DNA from: Pseudomonadota bacterium | GTDB lineage: Bacteria > Pseudomonadota > Gammaproteobacteria > Burkholderiales > JABEVD01 | Direction: 5' to 3' | DNA length: 32,658 nt | Assembly: GCA_021848705.1 (NCBI GenBank) | Contig: JAJZTT010000012.1 | Span: 1-32,658 of the forward strand | In this document: positions 17,277-32,307 of the stretch, piece by piece | Layout of the letters: every line of letters starts with the position of its first letter | Numbering within the stretch: position 1 is the first letter of the stretch | Position numbers and translations under genes: made by a program | The notes under the pieces: model-generated | What the model was told of the DNA's origin: nothing | Database searches by the model: none | What the model saw: the letters and a program-made list of their open reading frames with translations, nothing else

Positions 17277-18125
17277 CTAGTTGACGGTATCCTCGGAGCC
17301 GATGAAATACTGCGCCATTCCGGTGGTGTTCCTCGGCCCCGTCACCATCACCGTCACCCTGAAATAAAGCCTTCCGGTTCCGGAAACCAGGGTGGTGGCT
17401 CCGGAACCGTCTCCTCCGTACAGGATCGCAATCGGGCCGGAGCCGTATCCTGAACCTCCGCTTGTGACGGTCACGCCGACCGTGCCTCCCGTGATGGTGG
17501 CCGTTGCGGTCGCTCCGCTGCCACCCGAGCCGGTATTGTCGAAAACCACAGTGGGCGGGGTGACGTTGTATCCGTTTCCGGTATTCTGCAAGGTGACTCC
17601 GTTCACCGCCCCGTTGCTCACCGAGGCCGGAAAATACACCGGAGCCGCCATGCAGTAGGCGAATGTAGGAGCCGCGCCGTTGGTATTGGCCGCAGCGCCG
17701 ACATTCGTCCCGCACATCCTCTCGATGATGTATTGCACCTGATATCCGGCAGGAACCCCGGTGGGCACAGGCGGGCTCCAGTTGAGCGAATTCCCCGTAC
17801 CGGGATTCGGAAGCTTGGTCTGACTGTCTATCGGCAGCGCATCGGGATAATAGAAGCTGGAGCCGCTACATGCGGTTCCGGGTGACTTCGACTGAATCAC
17901 CTGGCAACTGGTGGCCACGCTTCCGTTCATCATGTTGGAAGTGACCCACTGGTAGGCAGCCGCCTCGCCGACATCCTCCATCTGCACCGCAGCCTCTCCG
18001 AATGCGAGGTTTCCCGAAATGACATTGGTGGTATCGACCGTTCTCATGAGCGAGATGCCGGCAAGCGACATCGCGACCAGCGCGATCAGCGCAATGATGA
18101 GGACGATTCCTTTCTGATTGTTCAC
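17277..18125 (-). CDS. pilX: Type IV pilus minor pilin/assembly protein PilX-like
   Basis: GTG start overlapping pilW stop; NNQKGIVLIIALIALVAMSLAGISLMRTVDTTNVISGNLAFGEAAVQ is PilX-like. C-terminal half has GxGY/GATATATI repeats. Confidence 0.8.
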   Translation of the reverse strand: MNNQKGIVLIIALIALVAMSLAGISLMRTVDTTNVISGNLAFGEAAVQMEDVGEAAAYQWVTSNMMNGSVATSCQVIQSKSPGTACSGSSFYYPDALPIDSQTKLPNPGTGNSLNWSPPVPTGVPAGYQVQYIIERMCGTNVGAAANTNGAAPTFAYCMAAPVYFPASVSNGAVNGVTLQNTGNGYNVTPPTVVFDNTGSGGSGATATATITGGTVGVTVTSGGSGYGSGPIAILYGGDGSGATTLVSGTGRLYFRVTVMVTGPRNTTGMAQYFIGSEDTVN

Positions 18126-19318
18126 AGGTTCCCCCAGATCACGTTCCTGAGCGGCACCACGGTCCAGTACACCTTGTAGCGGTAACACTTCCAGCTGGTA
18201 TCCGCAGTGAGATCCACGGTGGGCGGAGCACTGCTTCCAGTGGGCAACCCTGTCGAAGGCCAGGTCGCAGGCGCCGTGGTAGTGGTATTGCAGGCCAGGG
18301 CGCCGGTCGAGGAAGTGCCTGTGGCCTTTTCCTTCAGGGGACTTCTCGCCACCACCGCGATCCGGATCGCCTTGATGCGCTGGTAGTCGGACATGTTGGG
18401 GGTCGCCCAGTCTCCCGAAGAAGGAGAGCACTTGCTTCCCGTGGCATCGGTCCAGCAGTTGACGGTCTGCCCTCCCCCTGCCGCAGCCACGCCATACTGC
18501 GCCTGGATGTTGACGATATTGGCCGCCTGCGGAGTGCTGGTCGATGCGTAATTGTCGGTCTGGACCAGATTGCCGCTGGAGATGTTGAAGGTGGAGATCG
18601 TCAGGGGATTGCTCGGTCCGAGATCGATGACCTGGGCACCTGCAGTGTAATTCTGCGCGGTCGGGCTTCCGCTGGTGTTGCCGGCCGCATTGGATACGGA
18701 AGAAACATTGACCGTGGTCGGATCGCCGATGGTGATCGGGGCGGTTGTACCGCAATTTTGCGTGCAGTAATTGAAGCTCGAGGAAACCTTGAGCAGCGTG
18801 CAGTCGAGCGTACCCTGCGAAATCAGGATATAGTCATTCGCCTTCAACCCTCTTCCGGTATCGAGGGTGAGCGAGGAAGCCGTGCTGGAAGCGCTCGCAA
18901 TCAGATAGCCGTGGCCGGAACCTGTCGATATCCCCCCCAGGGCGGAATCCATTCTCGCCGTGATCAGGGTGTCGGAAAGACCGGTTCCGCCGTCGACGAT
19001 CTTGACCGGAACGCTCTGAAAAATGCTGTTCGGATTGAATGCATCGATCTGCGTGCAGGGAATGCTCCCCTGCTGCTGTGTTCCTCCCACGATGAGACCG
19101 CTCCTGATGAGGCCGAATCCGCCCAGGCGGATGTCCTGCTCGAGCGCGTAAAGGGCGGTAAGACCGCTTTGCTGCATGTCGGCGCCCGCCCCGGTCGTCC
19201 TTCTCTGCGACTCGAAAAGCGCGAGGGTCTGGAAGATCGCCAGCATGGCGACCAGACCGATCACGAGGCCTACCAGGATCTCGATCAGGCTGAATCCGCT
19301 TTGTTTGGTCTTGTCCAC
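18122..19318 (-). CDS. pilW: Type IV pilus minor pilin PilW-like
   Basis: MDKTKQSGFSLIEILVGLVIGLVAMLAIFQTLALFESQRRTTGAGADMQQSG; prepilin cleavage motif G^FSLIE. Confidence 0.9.
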   Translation of the reverse strand: MDKTKQSGFSLIEILVGLVIGLVAMLAIFQTLALFESQRRTTGAGADMQQSGLTALYALEQDIRLGGFGLIRSGLIVGGTQQQGSIPCTQIDAFNPNSIFQSVPVKIVDGGTGLSDTLITARMDSALGGISTGSGHGYLIASASSTASSLTLDTGRGLKANDYILISQGTLDCTLLKVSSSFNYCTQNCGTTAPITIGDPTTVNVSSVSNAAGNTSGSPTAQNYTAGAQVIDLGPSNPLTISTFNISSGNLVQTDNYASTSTPQAANIVNIQAQYGVAAAGGGQTVNCWTDATGSKCSPSSGDWATPNMSDYQRIKAIRIAVVARSPLKEKATGTSSTGALACNTTTTAPATWPSTGLPTGSSAPPTVDLTADTSWKCYRYKVYWTVVPLRNVIWGNL

Positions 19319-19327
19319 TGCTTTTCT

Positions 19328-19807
19328 TCAGTAAAGGTTGATCTGAGCCATGGTGGTATAGCTGTGCGTCGCGCCGCTCTGCGGGGATTTCCAGGAAAGC
19401 GTCACGGTCACTGTATGACCGGTCAGAACGCCCTGCGGATCGGTCACATTGCCCACCACGATGGTCGGCTGGTTTACCTTATCGGTCACGCCCGGAAGGT
19501 ACGCGCTCTGGCTGTTGGTGCTCTGGATCTGCGTCACCCAGGCCTGGACGGTGGTATTGGTCGTAGACGTAGTACAGGGACTGCATGCATAGCCCGTCAC
19601 GTTCAACCTGTCCGCCCAGATCAGGGAAAGGATCTGGTTGCCGAGAAATGCAGCATCCACCCGATAATGCGCCTCCATGGTCTGAGCGATCGACCTCGCC
19701 TGCATCCCGATCACGGCGAGAATACCCATGGTGAAAATGAGGAGCGCAATCAGGGCTTCCAGCACCATCACGCCGCCCTGTTTCGAAATGTCCGCGACTT
19801 GCCTCAC
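19328..19807 (-). CDS. pilV: Type IV pilus modification/minor pilin PilV-like
   Basis: MRQVADISKQGGVMVLEALIALLIFTMGILAVIGMQARSI; size and order match PilV. Confidence 0.85.
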   Translation of the reverse strand: MRQVADISKQGGVMVLEALIALLIFTMGILAVIGMQARSIAQTMEAHYRVDAAFLGNQILSLIWADRLNVTGYACSPCTTSTTNTTVQAWVTQIQSTNSQSAYLPGVTDKVNQPTIVVGNVTDPQGVLTGHTVTVTLSWKSPQSGATHSYTTMAQINLY

Positions 19808-19819
19808 TTCAGCCCCTCC

Positions 19820-20392
19820 TCACTGACAACCTTCCGGGTTCGACGCAAGGCTCACTGCAGGGTTGCACAACCTGATCTGCCCGAAAGCCGACACGATGAT
19901 CACCAGCCTCGTCGCGCTGCTGTCCGCCGTATTCGTCACGTCGATCCGGGTGAGATCCGTACCGGAATTGACTTCCTTTCCCAGCGCATCGAATGTCACC
20001 GATGCCGGCATCCCGGTTCCCGCCGAAATCGCGCTCGAATAATCCTGGGTCGAAGAGGAACTCGCCCCCACCCCAACGTTCTTCGCCTGCGCTCCGCTCC
20101 AGCTCTGTACCGGTACATTCAGATTGATTCCCGCGACGGTCGGATCGTCCGAAAGCACCGACCAGTCCGGGACACCGGAGGCCGAAGTGAGCTTGAAGAT
20201 CGCCTGCGTATTCTTCCGGATCGCTTCCGCCCTTGCGATCTGCAACCCGTTCAGGATCGACTCTGCGGCAGACCTCACCTGGGTGCTCGAAAGCCAGGTC
20301 TTGATGCTCGGCATGGCGAGCGCAAACAGCAACCCAAGGACTGCCAGCCCGATGAACAGCTCGATGAGGGTTGCGCCTTTCTGTCTCAACAC
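19820..20392 (-). CDS. fimT: FimT/GspH-family pseudopilin
   Basis: VLRQKGATLIELFIGLAVLGLLFALAMPSIKTWLSSTQVRSAAESILNGLQIARAEAIRKN. GTG (20392) or TTG (20389) start inside the pilE stop region. Confidence 0.85.
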   Translation of the reverse strand: MLRQKGATLIELFIGLAVLGLLFALAMPSIKTWLSSTQVRSAAESILNGLQIARAEAIRKNTQAIFKLTSASGVPDWSVLSDDPTVAGINLNVPVQSWSGAQAKNVGVGASSSSTQDYSSAISAGTGMPASVTFDALGKEVNSGTDLTRIDVTNTADSSATRLVIIVSAFGQIRLCNPAVSLASNPEGCQ

Positions 20393-20820
20393 GAATCTCC
20401 GGATTTGGTGATCCAGCACGCATAATTGACCGTCGAGCCCGCGAATTTCGTCGTGGCCTGATTGTTGGAAGAATCCACCGTATACGTATAATCTCCGGAA
20501 TTTCCGAGACCCACGCCGGCATTTCCTGTGGCGGTCGCAGTATAGGAGTCGGTCGTCGTTCCCACGGCGCAACTGTAGGTGAAATACTTTCCGGTGGGAA
20601 CCGCCACGCCGCACGCACCGCCAGCCGTTCCATACACCCGGTTGTCCTGGTAATACTGTTCCATCTGGATTCTGAAATTCGCCAGATTGTTCGGAGCCTC
20701 GACCAGCTTCCCGCGCACGACATACGATCCGTACAGGGGCGCCGCGATCGCGGCGAGCAATCCGACGATGGCCACCACGATCATGAGCTCGATGAGCGTG
20801 AATCCCTTTTGCATTTGCAT
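20386..20820 (-). CDS. pilE: Type IV pilin-like protein PilE
   Basis: MQMQKGFTLIELMIVVAIVGLLAAIAAPLYGSYVVRGKLVEAPNNLANFRIQMEQYYQDNRVYG; paired C-terminal Cys (YACWITKSGDSC). Confidence 0.9.
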   Translation of the reverse strand: MQMQKGFTLIELMIVVAIVGLLAAIAAPLYGSYVVRGKLVEAPNNLANFRIQMEQYYQDNRVYGTAGGACGVAVPTGKYFTYSCAVGTTTDSYTATATGNAGVGLGNSGDYTYTVDSSNNQATTKFAGSTVNYACWITKSGDSC

Positions 20821-20942
20821 TTCGTCCCGTGCGAGTTTGACCCAATTCAAATCTAAACCAGCGCTCAGGTACATCACAACATGAATCCGATGAGCGGTCG
20901 ATTTGATAGAATGAGCGGTAATTGCATAAATGGGGAGCGGCC

Positions 20943-21938
20943 ATGTCGGCGGACATCGCCATCATCGGGGCAGGGATCATCGGCCTTTCAAGCGCCTATG
21001 TGCTTGCAAAGACAGGCAGAAGCGTCATCGTCCTGGATCGCGGCGAAGCCGGAATGGAAGCTTCCTGGGCGGGCGGAGGAATCCTTTCGCCCCTTTTGCC
21101 CTGGGACTATCCCGAGGAAGTCGCCCTGCTCGCAGCGCGGGGAGCAGCGCTTTACCCGGAATGGACTGAAGAGCTTCGCGACGCCAGCGGAATCGATCCG
21201 GAATACCGGAAATGCGGCATGAAGATCCTGCCCGGAAGCCGCTCCCTGGAGAAGGCCCGACCCTGGTGCGAAGCGCACCATGCGCCTCACCTCGCCCTCG
21301 ACGACGGAGTCATGCTCCCCGATGTCGCGCAGGTGAGGAACCCCCGCCTCATCCGATCGCTCCGGAAGGCACTGGAAGGAATTGGCGTTTCCATCCTGAC
21401 GCACCATGAAGTCGTCTCATTCGAAAGATGCAGCGACCGCATCAGCGCACTCCTCACAGCGGGGGGGGAAAAATTCACTGCCGACAACTATGTCGTATGC
21501 GCAGGAGCATGGAGCAGGGTTCTGCTCGAACCGGAATTTTCCAGCCCGGAAATCTACCCGGTCAGGGGGCAGATGCTGCTTTTCGATGCGCCCGGGCTTG
21601 CCGACTCCATTCTCCTCAGGGATGAAATCTATCTCGTCCCCAGAAAAGACGGGCATCTCCTCGTCGGCAGCACGCTGGAATACGCAGGCTTCGACAAGTC
21701 GGTTTCGGCGGATGTGGGTCGACAATTGCATCGCAAGGCGGCCGGGATGCTGGCGGGACTCGAAAGGCTGCAGCCAGTCCGCCACTGGGCGGGGCTCAGG
21801 CCCGGATCTCCTGGAAATCTCCCCACCGTAGGAAAACACCCCGAAATCCAGAACCTCTACCTCAACTGCGGACATTTCCGCTACGGAGTCACGATGGCCC
21901 CGGAATGCGCAAGGATGCTTTCCTCGGCCTTCACGTAG
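20943..21938 (+). CDS. thiO: FAD-dependent glycine oxidase ThiO-like
   Basis: MSADIAIIGAGIIGLSSAYVLAKTGRSVIVLDRGEAGMEASWAGGGILSPLLPW; GLRPGSPGNLPTVGKHPEIQNLYLNCGHFRYGVTMAP. Confidence 0.9.
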   Translation: MSADIAIIGAGIIGLSSAYVLAKTGRSVIVLDRGEAGMEASWAGGGILSPLLPWDYPEEVALLAARGAALYPEWTEELRDASGIDPEYRKCGMKILPGSRSLEKARPWCEAHHAPHLALDDGVMLPDVAQVRNPRLIRSLRKALEGIGVSILTHHEVVSFERCSDRISALLTAGGEKFTADNYVVCAGAWSRVLLEPEFSSPEIYPVRGQMLLFDAPGLADSILLRDEIYLVPRKDGHLLVGSTLEYAGFDKSVSADVGRQLHRKAAGMLAGLERLQPVRHWAGLRPGSPGNLPTVGKHPEIQNLYLNCGHFRYGVTMAPECARMLSSAFT

Positions 21939-22689: not shown

Positions 22690-23145
22690 ATGACACCAGG
22701 CGAACTGCTTTACATACTCAGAAACCTTCCGGCAGAGACGCCGATGACGGTCGAAGAAGTAGTCAACCTTCTCTCCTCGCTACAACCCTCCAAAACTGAG
22801 CCGGATCATCAAGAGGCATACAGCACATGGGACAACGACAAGCTCATCGACACGAAAACACTCGCCGCCCGGATCGGGGAACGACCGGAATTACTTTCAA
22901 GATGGAGAGTTGAAGGGAAAGGACCTAAATACATTTCCAAGCCAAGGTATGTCAGCTACAGGGTCGGCGACGTCAGGAAATGGCTCATCTCGCGAACGGT
23001 TCAACCGACCACCGAAGCCGATCATAAATTGGCGGCAACGCAAATTTCAAAGCATTCTCCAGGAAAATGGAAGCCCGATACAAATCTCATTAACCGACTC
23101 CATACCCTGTCAATGTTGACTGTCCCGGTCATGTCCAAAGCATGA
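22690..23145 (+). CDS. Small MerR/AlpA-like helix-turn-helix (excisionase-type) protein
   Basis: LIDTKTLAARIGERPELLSRWRVEGKGPKYISKPRYVSYRVGDVRKWLISR matches the HTH_17/AlpA pattern (RW..EGkGPkyi....vrYr..dv..Wl). Confidence 0.6.
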   Translation: MTPGELLYILRNLPAETPMTVEEVVNLLSSLQPSKTEPDHQEAYSTWDNDKLIDTKTLAARIGERPELLSRWRVEGKGPKYISKPRYVSYRVGDVRKWLISRTVQPTTEADHKLAATQISKHSPGKWKPDTNLINRLHTLSMLTVPVMSKA

Positions 23146-23170: not shown

Positions 23171-25951
23171 ATGCCGAACGAACAGGACGCCAGGGGGAAT
23201 ATAGACAGGCAGCTTATTGCTGCGGGATGGGTCGTGTGTGACGCTGCGAAAGCGAACATCCATGCCTCGAAGGGCGTCGCCATCCGCGAATTCCCCCTGA
23301 AGAATGGTCACGGCTTCGCGGACTATCTTTTCTATCTGGACGGCAAGGCTGCCGGCGTGATCGAGGCGAAAAAGGAAGGCGTCACGCTTTCCGGGGTCGA
23401 AAACCAGTCGGACAAATACACCAAGGGGCTCCCCGACGGGTTGCCGAAATGGCACAATCCGCTCCCCTTTTCCTACCAGTCGACAGGTGCCGAGACCCGC
23501 TTCACGAACGGCATGGATCCCGAGCCGAGATCGAGAAGGGTTTTCTCCTTTCACAGGCCGGAAGTCCTCGCCGAGCTTCTTGAGAAGAAGAATTTTCTCG
23601 AAAATCTCCGGAGCATGCCCAAGCTTGTTACAGAAGGACTCTGGCCCGCCCAGATCCGGGCGATAGAAAATCTCGAAGGTTCGCTGCGGCAAAACAGGCC
23701 CCGCGCCTTGATCCAGATGGCGACCGGCTCCGGAAAAACCTTCACTTCCATCTCGTTCATCTACCGACTGATCAAGTTCGCAGGGGCAAGAAGAATCCTG
23801 TTCCTCGTGGACAGGGGAAACCTCGCAGACCAGACCTTGAAGGAATTCCAGCAGTATTCCTCCCCCTGCAACAATTACAAGTTCACCGAGGAATTCATCG
23901 TCCAGCGGCTCCAGGGCAACACGATAGACACGACGGCGCGGGTCTGTATCTGCACCATCCAGCGCATGTATTCCATGCTGAGGGGCAGGGAGCTCGATCC
24001 TGATCTGGAGGAAGAGTCCATCGACGGGATCGGCAGCCTGTTCAGGCAGCAGGAACCCATCGAATACAATCCGGACATCCCCATCGAGACATTCGACATC
24101 ATCGTCACCGACGAATGCCACCGCTCCATCTACAATCTCTGGGCACAGGTGCTGGAATATTTCGACGCCTACCTCGTCGGCCTCACTGCGACCCCATCGA
24201 AGCAGACATTCGGCTTCTTCAACCGGAACCTCGTGATGGAATACAACCACGAGATGGCCGTGGCGGACGGAGTGAACGTCAACTACGACGTCTACCGGAT
24301 CCGCACCGAGATCACGGAAAAAGGCTCCAAAGTCGAGGCGGGTTTTTCCGTGCAGATCCAGGAGCGCGACACCAGGAAAAAACGCTGGGAGCAACTCGAC
24401 GACGATTTTTCATATGACCCGAACCAGCTCGACCGCGATGTCGTGACCCCTGACCAGATCAGGAAGATCATCCAGACTTACCGCGACAAATTGTTCTCCG
24501 AAATCTTCCCCGGAAGGACGTGGGTGCCCAAGACCCTCATTTTCGCCAAGGACGACGCCCATGCGGAAAACATCGTGGAAATAGTGCGCGAAGTTTTCGA
24601 CAAGGGCAACGACTTCGCCCAGAAGATCACCTACCGAACGACAGGTGCCAGGCCGAAGGATCTCATCAACGAATTCAGGACCAGTCCAATGCCGAGGATT
24701 GCCGTGACCGTCGACATGATCGCCACCGGCACGGACATCAAGGCGGTCGAAGTCGTCATGTTCATGAGGGCGGTGAAATCGAGGGCCTTCTTCGAGCAGA
24801 TGAAGGGAAGAGGCGTCAGGGTGATTTCAAATGACGATCTCCAGAGCGTCACCCCCGATGCGGCATCCAAGGATCATTTCGTCATCGTTGACGCGGTGGG
24901 GGTTTGCGAGCAGGACAAGACCGATTCGCGCCCCATGGAAAGCAAGCCCACGGTGAGCTTCGAAAAACTCATGCAGGCCGTCGCTTTCGGCAATACGGAG
25001 GACGATGTGCTCACCTCTCTGGCGGGAAGGCTTGCCCGGATGGAGCATCGCATGAGCGCTGATGACGACAAGAAAATCCGCGCCATCTCCGGGGGCTTGA
25101 GCATCAAGGATTTGAGCCACGACATCATCGCAGCGTTGAATCCAGACCGTCATATCGAAGAGGCCAAGGCAGATCTGGGCATCCCTCCTGGAGACGACAC
25201 GCCGATTCCGGATGCGGCGCTCGAAGCTGCACGGCAGAAGATCATCATTGAGGCGGTCAAGCCCTTGCACGATCCGGCCTTGCGCGAACTCATCATCGAT
25301 ACCAAAAAGAAGAACGAAGTCGTCATCGACATCGTGAGTTCGGACGAAGTGCTGGAAGCGGGCTTTTCGCAGGATGCGGTCGACCGGGCAAAGGGAATGG
25401 TGAAATCCTTCGAGGAATTCCTGGAAAAGAACAGGGACGAAATCACCGCCCTCCAGGTGCTCTACGGCAAACCCTACAAACATCGGCTATCCTTCGAATC
25501 GGTGAAGGAACTCGCCGACAGGATCGAGGCGCCGCCCTACCTCTGGAACGAGTCGCAGCTCTGGAACGCCTATGCCGCGCTGGAAAAATCGAAGGTCAAA
25601 GGGGCCTCCGGCAAACGCATTCTCACCGACCTCGTTTCCCTGGTGCGTTTCGCGATCCACCAGGAAAACGAGTTGATTCCCTTCCCCGAGAAAGTGGATG
25701 CGAACTTCAGGGCGTGGCTGGCAAGCTTGCCTGCGCCCGAAGGGCAGTCAGGTCGGATGCCTTTCACGCCTGAACAAATGCACTGGCTGGAAATGATCCG
25801 CGACCACATTGCGGCGAACCTCGGAATCGAGCCGGAAGATTTCGAATACGCGCCCTTCTCGCAGCAGGGCGGACTGGGCCGCGTGCATCAGCTTTTCGGC
25901 GAAAAGCTGAATGACATCATCGAAGAATTGAACGAAAGTTTGGCGGCATGA
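23171..25951 (+). CDS. hsdR: Type I restriction enzyme endonuclease subunit R
   Basis: Nuclease motif region ADYLFYLDGKAAGVIEAKK; Walker A MATGSGKTFTSISFIYRL; VTDECHRSIYNLWAQVLEYFDAYLVGLTATP; VDMIATGTDIKAVEVVMFMR. Confidence 0.97.
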   Translation: MPNEQDARGNIDRQLIAAGWVVCDAAKANIHASKGVAIREFPLKNGHGFADYLFYLDGKAAGVIEAKKEGVTLSGVENQSDKYTKGLPDGLPKWHNPLPFSYQSTGAETRFTNGMDPEPRSRRVFSFHRPEVLAELLEKKNFLENLRSMPKLVTEGLWPAQIRAIENLEGSLRQNRPRALIQMATGSGKTFTSISFIYRLIKFAGARRILFLVDRGNLADQTLKEFQQYSSPCNNYKFTEEFIVQRLQGNTIDTTARVCICTIQRMYSMLRGRELDPDLEEESIDGIGSLFRQQEPIEYNPDIPIETFDIIVTDECHRSIYNLWAQVLEYFDAYLVGLTATPSKQTFGFFNRNLVMEYNHEMAVADGVNVNYDVYRIRTEITEKGSKVEAGFSVQIQERDTRKKRWEQLDDDFSYDPNQLDRDVVTPDQIRKIIQTYRDKLFSEIFPGRTWVPKTLIFAKDDAHAENIVEIVREVFDKGNDFAQKITYRTTGARPKDLINEFRTSPMPRIAVTVDMIATGTDIKAVEVVMFMRAVKSRAFFEQMKGRGVRVISNDDLQSVTPDAASKDHFVIVDAVGVCEQDKTDSRPMESKPTVSFEKLMQAVAFGNTEDDVLTSLAGRLARMEHRMSADDDKKIRAISGGLSIKDLSHDIIAALNPDRHIEEAKADLGIPPGDDTPIPDAALEAARQKIIIEAVKPLHDPALRELIIDTKKKNEVVIDIVSSDEVLEAGFSQDAVDRAKGMVKSFEEFLEKNRDEITALQVLYGKPYKHRLSFESVKELADRIEAPPYLWNESQLWNAYAALEKSKVKGASGKRILTDLVSLVRFAIHQENELIPFPEKVDANFRAWLASLPAPEGQSGRMPFTPEQMHWLEMIRDHIAANLGIEPEDFEYAPFSQQGGLGRVHQLFGEKLNDIIEELNESLAA

Positions 25952-27381
25952 GCGTAGTTAGAGAAAGTCATGGAATCCCTGAAACCTGGCAACTGGTACC
26001 ACTGAAAGAACTCGGTGTGTGGTCGGGCGGAGGCACTCCGTCAAAAGCCAAACCGGAGTTCTGGTCGAACGGCTCCATTCCTTGGGTTTCACCCAAGGAT
26101 ATGAAGACGGACCACATTACCGACAGTGAGGATCACATCACCTGGGCTGCTGTTGAAGGTTCAGCAACTAAGTTGATTCCAGCAGGCTCAGTGCTGCTCG
26201 TTACTCGAAGCGGAATTCTGAGTCACACACTTCCCGTAGCGATTACCACCATTCCGGTGACGGTCAACCAGGATTTGAAGACAATCACGCCAAAAGTTGG
26301 AGTTTTGCCCGAGTATGTGGCATGGGCGCTTCGTTGTTTTGCTCGCGAGGTACTGAATACCTGCTCAAAGCAGGGGACCACAGTTGCTAGTATCGAGACG
26401 ACGGCCCTACATCGTTTCGAGATTCCAGTCGCCCCCCTCGACCAGCAAAAACTCATCGTCGAAGAAATCGAAAAGCAGTTCTCTCGCCTCGACGAAGCCG
26501 TCGCCAACCTGAAGCGCGTCAAGGCCAACCTCAAACGTTACAGGGCGTCCGTCCTGAAAGCCGCAGTTGAAGGCCGCCTCGTTGAACTTGAGGCCGAACT
26601 CGCCCGCCGTGAAGGCTGTAGTTATGAGACAGGCGAACAGCTCCTTCAACGTATCCTCATCGAGCGCCGTGAAAAATGGTCCGGCCGCGGAAAATACAAG
26701 GAACCCGCCGCGCCCGATATATCCAATTTGCCCGAATTGCCCGAGGGGTGGGTGTGGGCAACCTATGAACAAGTCAGTCGTCTACAATTGGGACGCCAAC
26801 GTGCACCGAAGTATCATTCAGGTCCGAATATGCGCCCGTATCTTCGGGTCCAGAATGTATTTGAGGACCGGATCGACCTCTCCGATGTGATGGAAATGGA
26901 TTTTCCGCCCGATGATTTTGCGAAGTATCAACTTAACCCAGGCGATCTGCTCCTAAACGAGGGCCAAAGTCCCGAACTTTTGGGGCGCCCAGCAATATAT
27001 CGCGGTGAATTGCCCGGTAGTTGTTTCACAAATACGCTAATTCGATTCCAAGCGATTGAGGGTATCAGAGTGGAATTTGCCCTTTTGGTTAGCAGAAACA
27101 ATATGCACGCAGGGCGCTTTGTTGATGAAGGCACGATTACAACAAATATTGCACACTTGAGCATAGGCAGGCTTGCAAAAGTTGAGTTTCCTCTGCCGCC
27201 TTTTGCCGAGCAACTCCGCATCGTCGCCGAGGTCGACTGCCGCCTCTCACTTCTACGCGAAACCGAAGCACAGGTGGACGCCAATCTCAAGCGCGCCGAA
27301 AAACTCAAGCAGGCCATCCTGAGTCGCGCATTTTCCGGAGGGCTTGTTCCGGGAGGAGAAATTCGGGAAGGCGCTGCCTGA
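25948..27381 (+). CDS. hsdS: Type I restriction enzyme specificity subunit S
   Basis: Two TRD/coiled-coil halves: IPETWQLVPLKELGVWSGGGTPS...IPVAPLDQQKLIVEEIEKQFSRLDEAVANLKRVKANLKRYRASVLKAAVEG and LPEGWVWATYEQVSRL...FPLPPFAEQLRIVAEVDCRLSLLRETEAQVDANLKRAEKLKQAILSRAFSG. ATG overlaps the hsdR stop. Confidence 0.96.
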   Translation: MSVVRESHGIPETWQLVPLKELGVWSGGGTPSKAKPEFWSNGSIPWVSPKDMKTDHITDSEDHITWAAVEGSATKLIPAGSVLLVTRSGILSHTLPVAITTIPVTVNQDLKTITPKVGVLPEYVAWALRCFAREVLNTCSKQGTTVASIETTALHRFEIPVAPLDQQKLIVEEIEKQFSRLDEAVANLKRVKANLKRYRASVLKAAVEGRLVELEAELARREGCSYETGEQLLQRILIERREKWSGRGKYKEPAAPDISNLPELPEGWVWATYEQVSRLQLGRQRAPKYHSGPNMRPYLRVQNVFEDRIDLSDVMEMDFPPDDFAKYQLNPGDLLLNEGQSPELLGRPAIYRGELPGSCFTNTLIRFQAIEGIRVEFALLVSRNNMHAGRFVDEGTITTNIAHLSIGRLAKVEFPLPPFAEQLRIVAEVDCRLSLLRETEAQVDANLKRAEKLKQAILSRAFSGGLVPGGEIREGAA

Positions 27382-27383
27382 CC

Positions 27384-28112
27384 TTGGAAATCGTCGAAAT
27401 ACTGGGGCGTTCGCAACAGGGAATCACCAAACCCTTCATCTGCCGGGCAGAGGATGGCCTTGTCTATTTCGTCAAGGGGCCTGGTGGCGGTGCGCGTAGC
27501 CTGATCTGCGAATGGATTGCGGGCCAGTTGGGCCGTATGCTGGGACTTCCCATCGCGCCTTTCGTGATCGTCGAAATTCCGCAAGAATTGCTGACTTTTG
27601 CCATGAGGAATGATCTGTCCGAACTGGGAACGGGCAAGGCGTTTGGATCGCGCAAAATGGCTGTAGTCGAATTGTCTGCATCTCATGTCGATTATGTGCC
27701 GGAAGAAACGCGGAGAGATGTGCTGGCTTTCGATTGGTGGGTGCGCAACGGTGACCGTACTCTCGGCGAAGCCGGCGGAAATCCCAACCTGTTTTGGGAT
27801 GTCGAATCTGATGGTCTTGTGGTCTTGGACCATAATCAGGCTTTCGACAGGGAATTTTCGGCAGAAGCTTTTGCCGCTACCCATGCTTTTCGGGATCAAT
27901 TCGGCACGATTTCCGGGGACTGGATTTTGCAGCAAGAGTACCGGAGCCGCTTCGAAAATGTGATGACAGCCTGGCAATCGATCTGCGATACTGTCCCACC
28001 CGACTGGTGGTTTGTCGATGTGGAAAGAACGGTGCCGACCGATTTCAACCTTGATGAAACGCATCAAATGCTGCTGCGCTGCCTGGCCGACGGGTTCTGG
28101 AGTTTGAGATGA
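27384..28112 (+). CDS. HipA-like kinase-fold protein (HipA_2-like)
   Basis: TTG start 2 nt after hsdS stop. G..KPF.CRAEDGLVYFVKGP (ATP Lys region), ICEWIAGQLGRMLGLPIAPF, FDWWVRNGDRTLGEAGGNPNLFWD (catalytic D...N) and LVVLDHNQAFD (metal-binding Asp). Confidence 0.8.
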   Translation: MEIVEILGRSQQGITKPFICRAEDGLVYFVKGPGGGARSLICEWIAGQLGRMLGLPIAPFVIVEIPQELLTFAMRNDLSELGTGKAFGSRKMAVVELSASHVDYVPEETRRDVLAFDWWVRNGDRTLGEAGGNPNLFWDVESDGLVVLDHNQAFDREFSAEAFAATHAFRDQFGTISGDWILQQEYRSRFENVMTAWQSICDTVPPDWWFVDVERTVPTDFNLDETHQMLLRCLADGFWSLR

Positions 28113-28951
28113 GAAGGATTCCCTGCCTTTATTCGATTGTACGTTTTGCCCCTTTCGTGGAAACGGGCGAGTTCGCCAACGTGGGCGTGATCATGATCGC
28201 CCCTGAGCAACGGTTTTTCGAATTCAGACTTCTCATTCAGCGTCATTCGCGGATCACCCATTTCTTCGAGCAACTGGACGCCGGGGTCTACAAAGCCACG
28301 ATGCGCAATCTCGAGGAGGAATTGAACCGGGTGGCGGGTGTGCTGCGCCGCCATGGTTTCGACAAGCGGCTCAAGGCAAACGATGTCGAGTTCGCCAAAA
28401 ACCTGTTTGCCGAAGTCATTCGTCCCAGGGAGACCATCATCAAGTTTGGCGAGCCAAGGGTTGTTTTGACTGAAGACATGAAAGCGACCTTGGAAGAGCT
28501 TTATGGCTTTTATGTGGAGCGCAATTTCGCGACCCGCGAATATCAGGAAGCGGTGCTGGAGCGGGGAATGCGGAAATGGCTGAGTCAGGCCGGAATCATC
28601 GAGCGTTTTACCCGCCAGGATATCGGCGACGAGGAGTACCATGTCGCATTTCCTTTCGTGGAACGCAGTGAACTGAACCCGGTGAAGGCGATCAAGCCTT
28701 TGCATCTGGCGCATGATCAGCCCAGCAAGATTCTCGATCATGGGGGGCAATGGCTCTTCCGCCTGGAACAGCTCAAGCGCCGCAAGCAACTGCCGGGGAA
28801 GATCCTGATTGCGGTCAGGGGGCCAGACGAAGATGGGGCAAGAGAGCGCGCTTACAAGGAAATCTTCGACAGCCTGGAAAACTCCGGAGTCACCGTGCTT
28901 CCCTACGCCGACAGGGAGCAAATTCTCGACTTTGCGTCGAAAGCGGCCTGA
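28109..28951 (+). CDS. DUF3037 domain-containing protein
   Basis: IPCLYSIVRFAPFVETGEFANVGVIMIAPEQRFFEFRL N-terminus is DUF3037-like; ATGA overlap with the HipA-like gene. Confidence 0.75.
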   Translation: MRRIPCLYSIVRFAPFVETGEFANVGVIMIAPEQRFFEFRLLIQRHSRITHFFEQLDAGVYKATMRNLEEELNRVAGVLRRHGFDKRLKANDVEFAKNLFAEVIRPRETIIKFGEPRVVLTEDMKATLEELYGFYVERNFATREYQEAVLERGMRKWLSQAGIIERFTRQDIGDEEYHVAFPFVERSELNPVKAIKPLHLAHDQPSKILDHGGQWLFRLEQLKRRKQLPGKILIAVRGPDEDGARERAYKEIFDSLENSGVTVLPYADREQILDFASKAA

Positions 28952-29382
28952 TCTTCCTCTGCTGGCTTGAAAAGGCCGGCGGACATGGCCGGGGAACTCG
29001 CTACCGCTGGCCCAAGGGAGGCATTGGGGATTTGTTCGAAGGTGACGTCGATGAGGTTGAAAGCTCCGAACATAACGGCGAAAGCTCCGAACATAACGGC
29101 GAAAGCTCCGAACATTCGGAGGCCGAACAACAATTGCTGGCCATCGCTGCACCGATCAGGGAAAAAGCGAGGGTTACCAGGGCATCGATGGAAGAGGCGA
29201 TCCTTGCGCTATGTTCAAATGACTGGCGAACGATGCGAACATTGGCCGAACTCCTCGGAAGGGAGTCGGATTCCCTGCGCAACCATTACATCAACCCTAT
29301 GCTGAGAGACGGCCGTCTGGTTGCCCGGGTGCCCGGCAATCCGAACCATCCAAATCAAGCCTACAAAACGAAACCGGAATGA
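28952..29382 (+). pseudogene. C-terminal remnant of an AlbA_2/RecG-like ATP-binding protein (winged-helix tail)
   Basis: Translated tail ...WLEKAGGHGRGTRYRWPKGGIGDLFEGDVDEVESSEHNGESSEHNGESSEHSEAEQQLLAIAAPIREKARVTRASMEEAILALCSNDWRTMRTLAELLGRESDSLRNHYINPMLRDGRLVARVPGNPNHPNQAYKTKPE resembles the C-terminus of AlbA_2-type proteins; no catalytic N-terminal region and no plausible start codon at the correct place. Confidence 0.6.
29059..29115 (+). repeat. 21-bp in-frame tandem repeat (about 2.7 copies) encoding ESSEHNG
   Basis: GAAAGCTCCGAACATAACGGC x2 at 29059-29100, plus partial GAAAGCTCCGAACAT. Confidence 0.95.
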
Positions 29383-29513: not shown

Positions 29514-29542
29514 TTGAATAATCAATTATCAAGTGTTATTCT
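29514..29542 (+). promoter_or_regulatory. Candidate sigma70-type promoter for the HTH/NTase/hsdM block
   Basis: TTGAAT (29514-29519), 17-bp spacer, TATTCT (29537-29542), just downstream of the palindrome. Confidence 0.5.
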
Positions 29543-29574
29543 TATATATCGCGAATACACATGAAGTCCATGTC

Positions 29575-30108
29575 ATGCGCCGTGCCGTCAACAAACAACC
29601 CGTCCTCAAGGCGCAGGATTTTTACCTGCTGCTGGCGCTGCTCGCCCGTCGGGGCGAAGCGATGTCATATCCTGAGCTGGCCGCTTTTTCCGGGCTTTCG
29701 ATATCCGAGGTGCATGGTGCGCTGAAACGCGCCGAGCAGGCGCGGTTGCTGGCGTTTGTCGACAAGCAGCCGAGCGTCATCATCCCTGCGTTCAGGGATT
29801 TTTTGCTTTATGGGGCGCGCTATGCTTTTCCCGCATTGCGCGGCTCGATGGTGGGCGGTGTGCCCACGGCCTATGCGGCTGCGCCGCTCAATGCCCTGAT
29901 TGCGCCGTCGGCCGATCCGGTTCCCGTATGGCCGTATGCGGAAGGCAGTGTGCGGGGCATTGCGTTGATACCGCTTTATCCCAGCGCGCCGGCGGCAGCG
30001 CTACGAAGCCCTGCGTTGTATGAAAATCTGGCGTTGTTTGATGCCTTGCGCGTGGGCAATGCGCGCGAGCGTAACTTTGCCGAGAAACTGTTCAAGGAGC
30101 GGTTGTGA
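29575..30108 (+). CDS. Winged-helix/MarR-like HTH protein, putative antitoxin-regulator of the adjacent nucleotidyltransferase
   Basis: MRRAVNKQPVLKAQDFYLLLALLARRGEAMSYPELAAFSGLSISEVHGALKRAEQARLL is HTH-like; GTGA overlap with the next gene. Confidence 0.7.
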   Translation: MRRAVNKQPVLKAQDFYLLLALLARRGEAMSYPELAAFSGLSISEVHGALKRAEQARLLAFVDKQPSVIIPAFRDFLLYGARYAFPALRGSMVGGVPTAYAAAPLNALIAPSADPVPVWPYAEGSVRGIALIPLYPSAPAAALRSPALYENLALFDALRVGNARERNFAEKLFKERL

Positions 30109-30815
30109 ATCCGCGCGACCCCAATATCCAGTTGCTGGAGGTTGTGGCGCATGCGTTGGATGAATTGTGCGAAGAACTGCTGTTTGTGGGCGGATGTGCG
30201 GTCGGCTTGTTGTGCACTTCGCCGAGTGCTGCACCTGCCCGTGTGACGTATGACGTGGATGTAGTGGCAGAGGTGCTTGCGTTATCGGCTTACCATGCGC
30301 TGGAGGAAAAATTCGCGGCACGCGGTTTTGTTCGCGATATGTCGCTGGATGCGCCTATCTGCCGCTGGCGTTTTGGTGAACTGGAAGTTGATCTGATGCC
30401 GACGGACGAACGGGTACTGGGTTTTGCCAACCGTTGGTATCCCCTGGCGAATAAGAGTGCTGCGCGCATGAAGCTTCCGAGCGGCAGGCAGATCAGGCTT
30501 ATTTCCGCCCCGGCGTTTTTGGCGACCAAGCTGGAGGCATTTGCCACGCGCGGTCATGGCGATATGATGTCCAGCCATGATTTCGAGGACATCATCAATA
30601 TTCTGGATGGGCGCCCGGAAATCGTGGATGAAGTGGCCCTTGCGGGGGGAGAACTGGCGGAGTATCTGGTGACCTGTTTTGGCGACATCGCACGCCATCG
30701 CGATTTTGAAAATACCTTGCCGGGACTGATTGAATTTGATGAGTTATATGAAGAAAGAGTGTGGCGGGTGCGTGAACGGATCAATGCAATTACAAGGATA
30801 AGAAATAATGAATAG
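30105..30815 (+). CDS. Nucleotidyltransferase-fold protein (AbiEii/DUF6036-like), putative toxin
   Basis: LLFVGGCAVGLL...TYDVDVVAEV...FGELEVDLMP: GG..., DxD and third Asp of the Pol-beta NTase fold; FLATKLEAFATRGHGDMMSSHDFEDIINILDGR typical of AbiEii-like proteins. Confidence 0.75.
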   Translation: MNPRDPNIQLLEVVAHALDELCEELLFVGGCAVGLLCTSPSAAPARVTYDVDVVAEVLALSAYHALEEKFAARGFVRDMSLDAPICRWRFGELEVDLMPTDERVLGFANRWYPLANKSAARMKLPSGRQIRLISAPAFLATKLEAFATRGHGDMMSSHDFEDIINILDGRPEIVDEVALAGGELAEYLVTCFGDIARHRDFENTLPGLIEFDELYEERVWRVRERINAITRIRNNE

Positions 30816-32307
30816 CGCCAGCATCGTCCAGAAACTCTGGAATTACTGCAACGTGCTGAGGGACGACGGCATGTCCTACGGCGACTACGTCGAACAGCTC
30901 ACCTATCTGCTTTTCCTCAAGATGGCGGACGAGCGCACCAGGGCGCCCTACAACCAGAAGAGCCCTGTCCCGGAAGGATATGACTGGCAGAACCTGATCA
31001 AAAAGGACGGGGACGAGCTTTTCGACCATTACCGCCACACGCTCGAAGCGCTCGGGAGGGAAAAGGGGCTGCTCGGGCTGATCTTCGGAAAATCGCAGAA
31101 CAAATTCCAGGACCCCGCGAAGCTCAGGAGGCTCGTCGTCGACCTCATCGACAGGGAACAGTGGGTTTCGATGAGCTCCGACGTGAAGGGGGATGCCTAC
31201 GAAGGGCTGCTGGAAAAGAACGCGCAGGACACCAAGTCCGGCGCAGGTCAATATTTCACGCCTCGCGCCCTGATCCAGGCAATCGTCGACGTGGTGAATC
31301 CCAAGCCGGGCGAGACGGTATCGGATCCCGCCTGCGGAACGGGAGGATTCCTGCTTTCCGCTCACGATCATGTGGTGAAACACAATCCGAATTTGACCCG
31401 CGACCAGCGCAAGAAGCTCAAGGAGGAAAGCTTCAAGGGATGGGAACTGGTTCAGGCGACCGCGAGGCTTTGCGCGATGAACATGCTGTTGCACGGCATC
31501 GGCAGCCAGGAATTCGAACCCATCGTCGTCGGCGATTCCCTCGGAGCGGATCCGGGCGACCGGTTCGATATCGTGCTCACCAACCCGCCTTTCGGCAAGA
31601 AGAGCAGCACCACCATCGTCGGCGAGGAAGGACGGGCGACGAAGGAGCGCGACATCGTCGAGCGTGGCGATTTCTGGACCACCACTTCGAACAAGCAGCT
31701 CAACTTCGTCCAGCACGTCAAGACGCTTTTGAAGCAGAACGGCAAGGCGGCAGTCGTCGTTCCCGACAATGTGCTCTTCGAGGGCGGCGCGGGCGAGACC
31801 ATCCGCAGAAAGCTCCTCCAGGAATGCGATGTCCACACCCTTCTGCGCCTGCCCACCGGCCTATTCTATGCGCAGGGCGTGAAGGCGAACGTCATCTTCT
31901 TCGAAAAGAAGCCGGCAAGCGAAGCTCCCTGGACGAAAAAACTCTGGATTTATGACCTCCGGACCAACATGCACTTCACGTTGAAAACCAATCCATTGAA
32001 GCGCGAGGATCTGGACGAATTCGTAAATTGCTACCATCCGGAAAATCGTCATGATCGGAAGGCCACATGGTCGGAGCAGAATCCGGAAGGAAGGTGGCGT
32101 TCATACGACTACGAGGATCTGGTCGCGCGGGACAAGGCCAGCCTCGACATCTTCTGGCTGAAGGACGAGTCGCTTTCGGACTCAGACAACCTTCCCGCCC
32201 CCGACGTGATCGCCCAGGAAATCGTCGAAGACCTCGAAGCTGCGCTGGAACAATTCAGGGAAATTCTTTCCGATTTGAGCCCGCAGTCAATGCAGGATGA
32301 AACATGA
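30808..32307 (+). CDS. hsdM: Type I restriction-modification system N6-adenine methyltransferase subunit M
   Basis: SDPACGTGGFLLSAHDHV (SAM motif), DIVLTNPPFGKKSS (NPPF), KSGAGQYFTPRALIQAIVDVVNPKPGETV. ATG lies inside the 3' end of the NTase gene. Confidence 0.97.
   Translation: MNSASIVQKLWNYCNVLRDDGMSYGDYVEQLTYLLFLKMADERTRAPYNQKSPVPEGYDWQNLIKKDGDELFDHYRHTLEALGREKGLLGLIFGKSQNKFQDPAKLRRLVVDLIDREQWVSMSSDVKGDAYEGLLEKNAQDTKSGAGQYFTPRALIQAIVDVVNPKPGETVSDPACGTGGFLLSAHDHVVKHNPNLTRDQRKKLKEESFKGWELVQATARLCAMNMLLHGIGSQEFEPIVVGDSLGADPGDRFDIVLTNPPFGKKSSTTIVGEEGRATKERDIVERGDFWTTTSNKQLNFVQHVKTLLKQNGKAAVVVPDNVLFEGGAGETIRRKLLQECDVHTLLRLPTGLFYAQGVKANVIFFEKKPASEAPWTKKLWIYDLRTNMHFTLKTNPLKREDLDEFVNCYHPENRHDRKATWSEQNPEGRWRSYDYEDLVARDKASLDIFWLKDESLSDSDNLPAPDVIAQEIVEDLEAALEQFREILSDLSPQSMQDET

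Follow-up and report, generated by a model that had tools for sequence, protein, structure and literature searches.

Pairs made of a HipA-like kinase and a DUF3037 protein, now called HipAD, were validated as defence systems only recently. In the DefensePredictor study, DS-6, a HipA-like kinase with a DUF3037/DUF1829 protein, was validated and renamed HipAD; mutation of a predicted catalytic residue abolished defence, and AlphaFold3 predicts binding to the partner and to DNA (PMC13092281). The HipA-DUF3037 pair of Retron-Sda1 protects against phage Bas51 without the reverse transcriptase, and deletion of HipA eliminates this defence while deletion of DUF3037 is toxic (PMC12548924). Phage PhiR5_1 carries annotated HipA toxin and HipD antitoxin genes, and PADLOC models a pair of the same kind as PDC-M66, the PDC names being derived from a guilt-by-embedding screen. 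Growth-stopping proteins and toxin-antitoxin pairs are also known inside type I restriction-modification (R-M) loci. PrrC, an anticodon nuclease encoded in the hsd locus with EcoprrI, is kept silent by the R-M enzyme, and DarTG2 lies between hsdS and hsdR in a type I R-M operon of EPEC, the RRDM island, a working defence island (PMC12255303).

We analysed a window of 32,658 nucleotides (the whole stretch of DNA under study), in which a HipA_2 kinase gene (27384-28112) and a DUF3037 gene (28109-28951) lie on the forward strand among type I R-M genes. With a probability of roughly 0.8, we read this pair as a HipAD toxin-antitoxin defence module that lies within a type I R-M operon and is probably co-expressed with it.

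Comparison with described systems

Both window proteins match the PDC-M66A and PDC-M66B models (PADLOC-DB 2.0.0), the M66A match being confined to kinase residues 25-155. The window kinase shares 32% identity with PhiR5_1 HipA over kinase residues 3-208 and the partner 27% with PhiR5_1 HipD over partner residues 5-278, and the phage genes show the same 4-nt overlap, the same Pfam families and similar lengths. As in HipAD/DS-6, a HipA-like kinase is followed by a DUF3037 protein, and PDC-M66 and the Retron-Sda1 pair combine the same two families in the same order. The features of HipAD found in the window are a HipA_2 kinase with intact catalytic residues, an overlapping DUF3037 gene directly downstream, and homology of the two proteins, along most of their length, to the named HipA and HipD. 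The setting is different: the PhiR5_1 genes adjoin a prophage cI repressor and the Sda1 pair adjoins a retron, whereas the window pair sits in an hsd operon. The DS-6 partner is described as DUF3037/DUF1829, whereas Pfam gives no DUF1829 match in the window partner. The first-pass annotation knew of no described function for such a pair, a statement that PDC-M66, DS-6/HipAD and Retron-Sda1 have made outdated. Its proposal of a toxin-antitoxin or abortive-infection module with DUF3037 as the neutraliser agrees with the tests on homologues, and the toxin-antitoxin reading of the window pair is supported by analogy with them.

Two other assignments were rejected. The window kinase has the kinase fold and catalytic residues in common with E. 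coli HipA, but it is a 242-aa protein that matches HipA_2, which sets it apart. The hipBA antitoxin is the HTH protein HipB, whereas Pfam finds no HTH antitoxin family in the window partner, which is a DUF3037 protein, and here the toxin gene comes first. An assignment to PrrC fails because Pfam detects no such domain, only HipA_2 and DUF3037, in the pair; the putative toxin of the window is instead a kinase that has a partner of its own, and pairs of this type, unlike PrrC, persist without R-M genes. DarTG2 resembles the window pair as a toxin-antitoxin pair within a type I R-M locus, but it is an unrelated DNA ADP-ribosylation toxin with a dedicated repressor.

Organization of the R-M operon

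The R-M genes and the pair lie on a single strand and each is intact. The restriction gene hsdR, of EcoEI_R_C type (23171-25951, 926 aa; Pfam and PADLOC), overlaps by 4 nt the specificity gene hsdS (25948-27381, 477 aa; Pfam and PADLOC Specificity_I), which is followed by the HipA_2 kinase gene (242 aa from TTG) and the DUF3037 gene (280 aa), both called by Pfam and by PADLOC (as PDC-M66A and PDC-M66B) and read here as HipAD toxin and antitoxin genes. The adenine methyltransferase gene hsdM (30808-32307, 499 aa; Pfam and PADLOC MTase_I) lies further downstream. The hsdR-hsdS-hipA-DUF3037 order and its coordinates stand as the first-pass annotation gave them, including the ATGA overlap of hipA with the DUF3037 gene at 28109-28112, although that annotation omitted a gene remnant and a PDC-M21A/B pair that precede hsdM. 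Unrelated defence genes are found between hsdS and hsdM on the same strand not only in the window but also in two close relatives (L018 and L019).

It had also been stated that hipA starts 2 nt after hsdS. This is correct for the annotated TTG at 27384, but the true start may be a CTG at 27378 that overlaps hsdS, because the hsdS stop and the hipA start share nucleotides in close relatives (TTGA in L018 and L019, GTGA in L087 and ATGA in L030) and the window has CTGA at that place, two codons before the annotated TTG. In scans for promoters and terminators, neither a terminator nor a good promoter was detected between hsdS and hipA; a single transcript would fit this result but is not proved by it. 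We infer that the pair is co-transcribed with the R-M operon.

The HipA_2 kinase and its DUF3037 partner

The kinase matches PF20613 with 293 bits (cut-off 27), and the kinase motifs proposed earlier (ATP lysine, catalytic Asp and Asn, metal Asp) are borne out by 47 relatives: no substitution of K31, D124 or D149 occurs in any relative that retains the region, N135 never varies, and N133 differs in a single case. The AlphaFold model (pLDDT 91.8, pTM 0.90) resembles PI4KII, CtkA and HipA (3tpt and 4pu3) in Foldseek, with TM-scores of about 0.45-0.5. Sequence and profile searches of the PDB returned no credible relative of the kinase, and its kinship to HipA therefore rests on fold and Pfam family. 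Four loci (L031, L033, L037 and L038) have an intact DUF3037 gene next to a kinase gene that is interrupted or truncated, whereas the reverse is seen in L089 only. This 4-to-1 excess is as expected for a toxin and its antitoxin, although few loci are involved and a lone stop codon in a draft genome can reflect a sequencing error.

The partner matches PF11236 with 93.6 bits (cut-off 22.6), the DUF3037 domain covering residues 8-136. Sequence and profile searches of the PDB gave no credible relative of this protein either. Past the DUF3037 domain, the predicted model runs through a helix, three strands, a helix, a strand and a helix. In fold comparison with PDB structures, this C-terminal half matches the restriction enzyme BstEII best (E = 4.7e-4, probability 1.00), and several nucleases of PD-(D/E)XK type, which share this fold, come next with weaker scores. 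The match extends over only part of the protein, which keeps the TM-scores low (0.2-0.36). Among 39 full-length relatives, K196-P197 is kept in the third strand, while no conserved acid occupies the usual PD and (D/E)xK places of the second and third strands. Thus, the C-terminal half of HipD has a predicted nuclease-like fold that probably does not cut, and we treat this as a lead rather than proof. In a far clade (L042, L043 and L091-L093) the partner consists of the DUF3037 domain alone (about 130 aa), without the REase-like half.

Distribution of the pair and its association with R-M genes

In an even sample of the class (387 genomes), DUF3037 exceeds the cut-off in 11 genomes, in all of which (11/11) it adjoins a HipA_2 gene, and almost all HipA_2 genes at the loci studied are followed directly by a DUF3037 gene. 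Co-occurrence outside this locus, a check suggested by the first-pass annotation, is therefore clear. The distribution of the pair is scattered and includes plasmids and prophages. An intact pair, its DUF3037 protein about 50% identical to that of the window, is present on an IMG/VR viral contig (L124:5225-6831), and the pair also occurs in Neisseria gonorrhoeae (NZ_CP119140.1, locus L097), at 37% and 31% identity to the window pair, on a 2.17 Mb record that is labelled a plasmid and is evidently a chromosome.

The proposed enrichment beside hsd genes was also found. Excluding the window, 10 of 39 genomes encode an HsdM N-terminal domain at most 10 kb from the pair, against 0.52 expected on the assumption that R-M genes are placed uniformly along genomes. 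Many neighbours had been picked up through similarity to the window kinase, which makes the sample non-random; among the family-search genomes only, the count is 3 of 19 against 0.23 expected. Since defence genes cluster in general, this excess shows an association and not a functional link.

Directly upstream of the pair and on the same strand, an R-M gene or remnant is found in 13 of the 47 pairs compared: hsdS in seven (window, L018, L019, L021, L029, L039 and L044), hsdR in three (L017, L023 and L086), an MmeI type R-M gene in L048, and R-M remnants in L030 and L087. The other 34 pairs have no R-M gene at this place, although in L026 and L045 hsd genes lie further upstream on the same strand. 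These neighbours come from several R-M families and gene orders (R-S-M, R-M-S, M-S-R and MmeI type). When the R-M label (15 loci, counting L026 and L045) is mapped on a tree of both proteins, it requires 11 changes, at least 8 of which are forced by well-supported branches, and it is clustered little more than in shuffles (about one shuffle in nine is as low). The association has therefore been gained or lost many times, and a single origin was rejected. That the pair repeatedly lies on the same strand immediately after genes from various R-M families suggests that the combination of a growth-arrest module with restriction has been favoured by selection. In the part of the literature that was covered, we found no prior description of this recurrent placement, of the decayed loci described below, or of the HipD fold.

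Retention of the pair beside decayed R-M genes

In the tree the window groups with L018, L030 and L087, and L019 and L017 are nearby. In L018 and L019 the pair occupies the same place, between hsdS and hsdM, and hsdM is about 85% identical to that of the window. L018 also carries, between hsdR and hsdS (L018:4417-5058), three tandem copies of about 252 bp, each encoding the C-terminal ~45 residues of HsdR. Very little of hsdR and hsdS survives in L030: an in-frame fusion of the beginning of hsdR with the end of hsdS leaves a stub of 175 aa, which still overlaps hipA. The sequence overlapping hipA in L087 combines a RhuM/Fic-like segment with portions of hsdS, and of hsdM only fragments remain downstream. 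The hipAD pair is intact in both loci, and these cases indicate that the module needs no R-M neighbour. The link to R-M systems thus stands as a recurrent location, and the back-up coupling to R-M put forward in the first-pass annotation is a hypothesis. Strict dependence on the R-M enzyme is argued against by the decayed loci and by the several R-M families involved.

Retention after R-M decay would also be seen if the pair served mainly to addict the cell to the R-M operon or island, with little role in phage defence. The toxin-antitoxin architecture, the occurrence on plasmids and prophages and the loss of the kinase with the antitoxin kept would all fit such a selfish stabiliser, but phage protection that depends on the kinase was shown for homologues in two studies, and we consider this explanation rather unlikely.

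A control resembling that of PrrC, in which contact with the Hsd complex would keep HipAD inactive, or HipAD would sense Hsd failure (for example when a phage anti-restriction protein is bound) and would then kill the cell, could draw on the recurrent adjacency and translational coupling to hsdS or hsdR. The C-terminal half of HipD, with its predicted REase-like fold and without conserved acids, might be a plausible sensor of DNA or of the enzyme, and PrrC offers a precedent (PMC2610378). A toxin checked in this way by the R-M enzyme would not be expected to survive the decay seen in L030 and L087, and the intact hipAD genes beside wrecked R-M genes therefore argue against it. Moreover, only a minority of pairs directly follow an R-M gene, the R-M partners differ in family and order, and the validated homologues are not described as requiring R-M genes. 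We find this control quite unlikely. Similarly, it is quite unlikely that HipD reads DNA or the state of a neighbouring R-M enzyme through its degenerate REase-like half, so that HipAD acts as a second line when restriction is evaded or inhibited, though that half would be a possible route for an antitoxin to sense infection. That the kinase phosphorylates Hsd subunits and tunes restriction, for instance on entry into a new host, is suggested by the tight coupling to hsdS in one cluster but is very improbable, given pairs that are intact without R-M genes, a homologue that is toxic, and R-M families that differ.

A probable HipAD module in an R-M operon

We return to the reading of the window pair as a HipAD toxin-antitoxin module. 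Our own evidence for it is the gene content, the intact kinase residues, the homology, the recurrent placement and the survival after R-M decay; defence, its need for the kinase and toxicity without DUF3037 would carry over from homologues studied by others. The HipA_2 protein would be a Ser/Thr kinase toxin that HipD binds and restrains. Phage infection would upset the balance of toxin and antitoxin, and the freed kinase might then phosphorylate a cell target, by analogy with HipA probably a component of translation, so that growth stops and infection fails. We infer this activity, target and trigger for the window copy. Its position in the operon could let it be transcribed and transferred together with the R-M genes and couple its translation to that of hsdS, and HipAD would form a second layer behind restriction without the need for contact with the R-M enzyme. 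Loci that combine hipAD with R-M genes are natural operons in which synergy between the two can be tested.

Other genes of the locus

Downstream of the DUF3037 gene, the remnant (28954-29382, forward strand) is a C-terminal winged-helix piece of a larger gene, with a weak match to the winged helix of Fic-like_C (E = 5.6e-5, below the curated cut-off in Pfam). It is 5′-truncated and contains a short in-frame repeat, SSEHNGE; a different gene (DUF4357) is found at this place in L019. It is followed on the same strand by PDC-M21A (29533-30108), a winged-helix protein, and its partner PDC-M21B (30105-30815), an AbiEii-like nucleotidyltransferase whose Pfam match is below the cut-off, both called by PADLOC. 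This pair (29533-30815) is directly upstream of hsdM and overlaps it. M21B is present in 22 of 243 genomes, almost always together with M21A at the loci seen. Only one of the flanks seen (L106) has a clear hsdM next to M21B, and hipAD occurs with hsdM without M21. A shared origin of the two pairs was rejected on these grounds. PDC-M21A/B is a pair independent of hipAD, so at least two unrelated modules have come together in the window operon.

Just upstream of hsdR, a small helix-turn-helix-like ORF (22690-23145) is a possible regulator of the operon; it has no Pfam match and no relative among the loci compared. Further upstream of the R-M locus, a cluster of type IV pilus minor pilin-like genes occupies the reverse strand (17277-20980).
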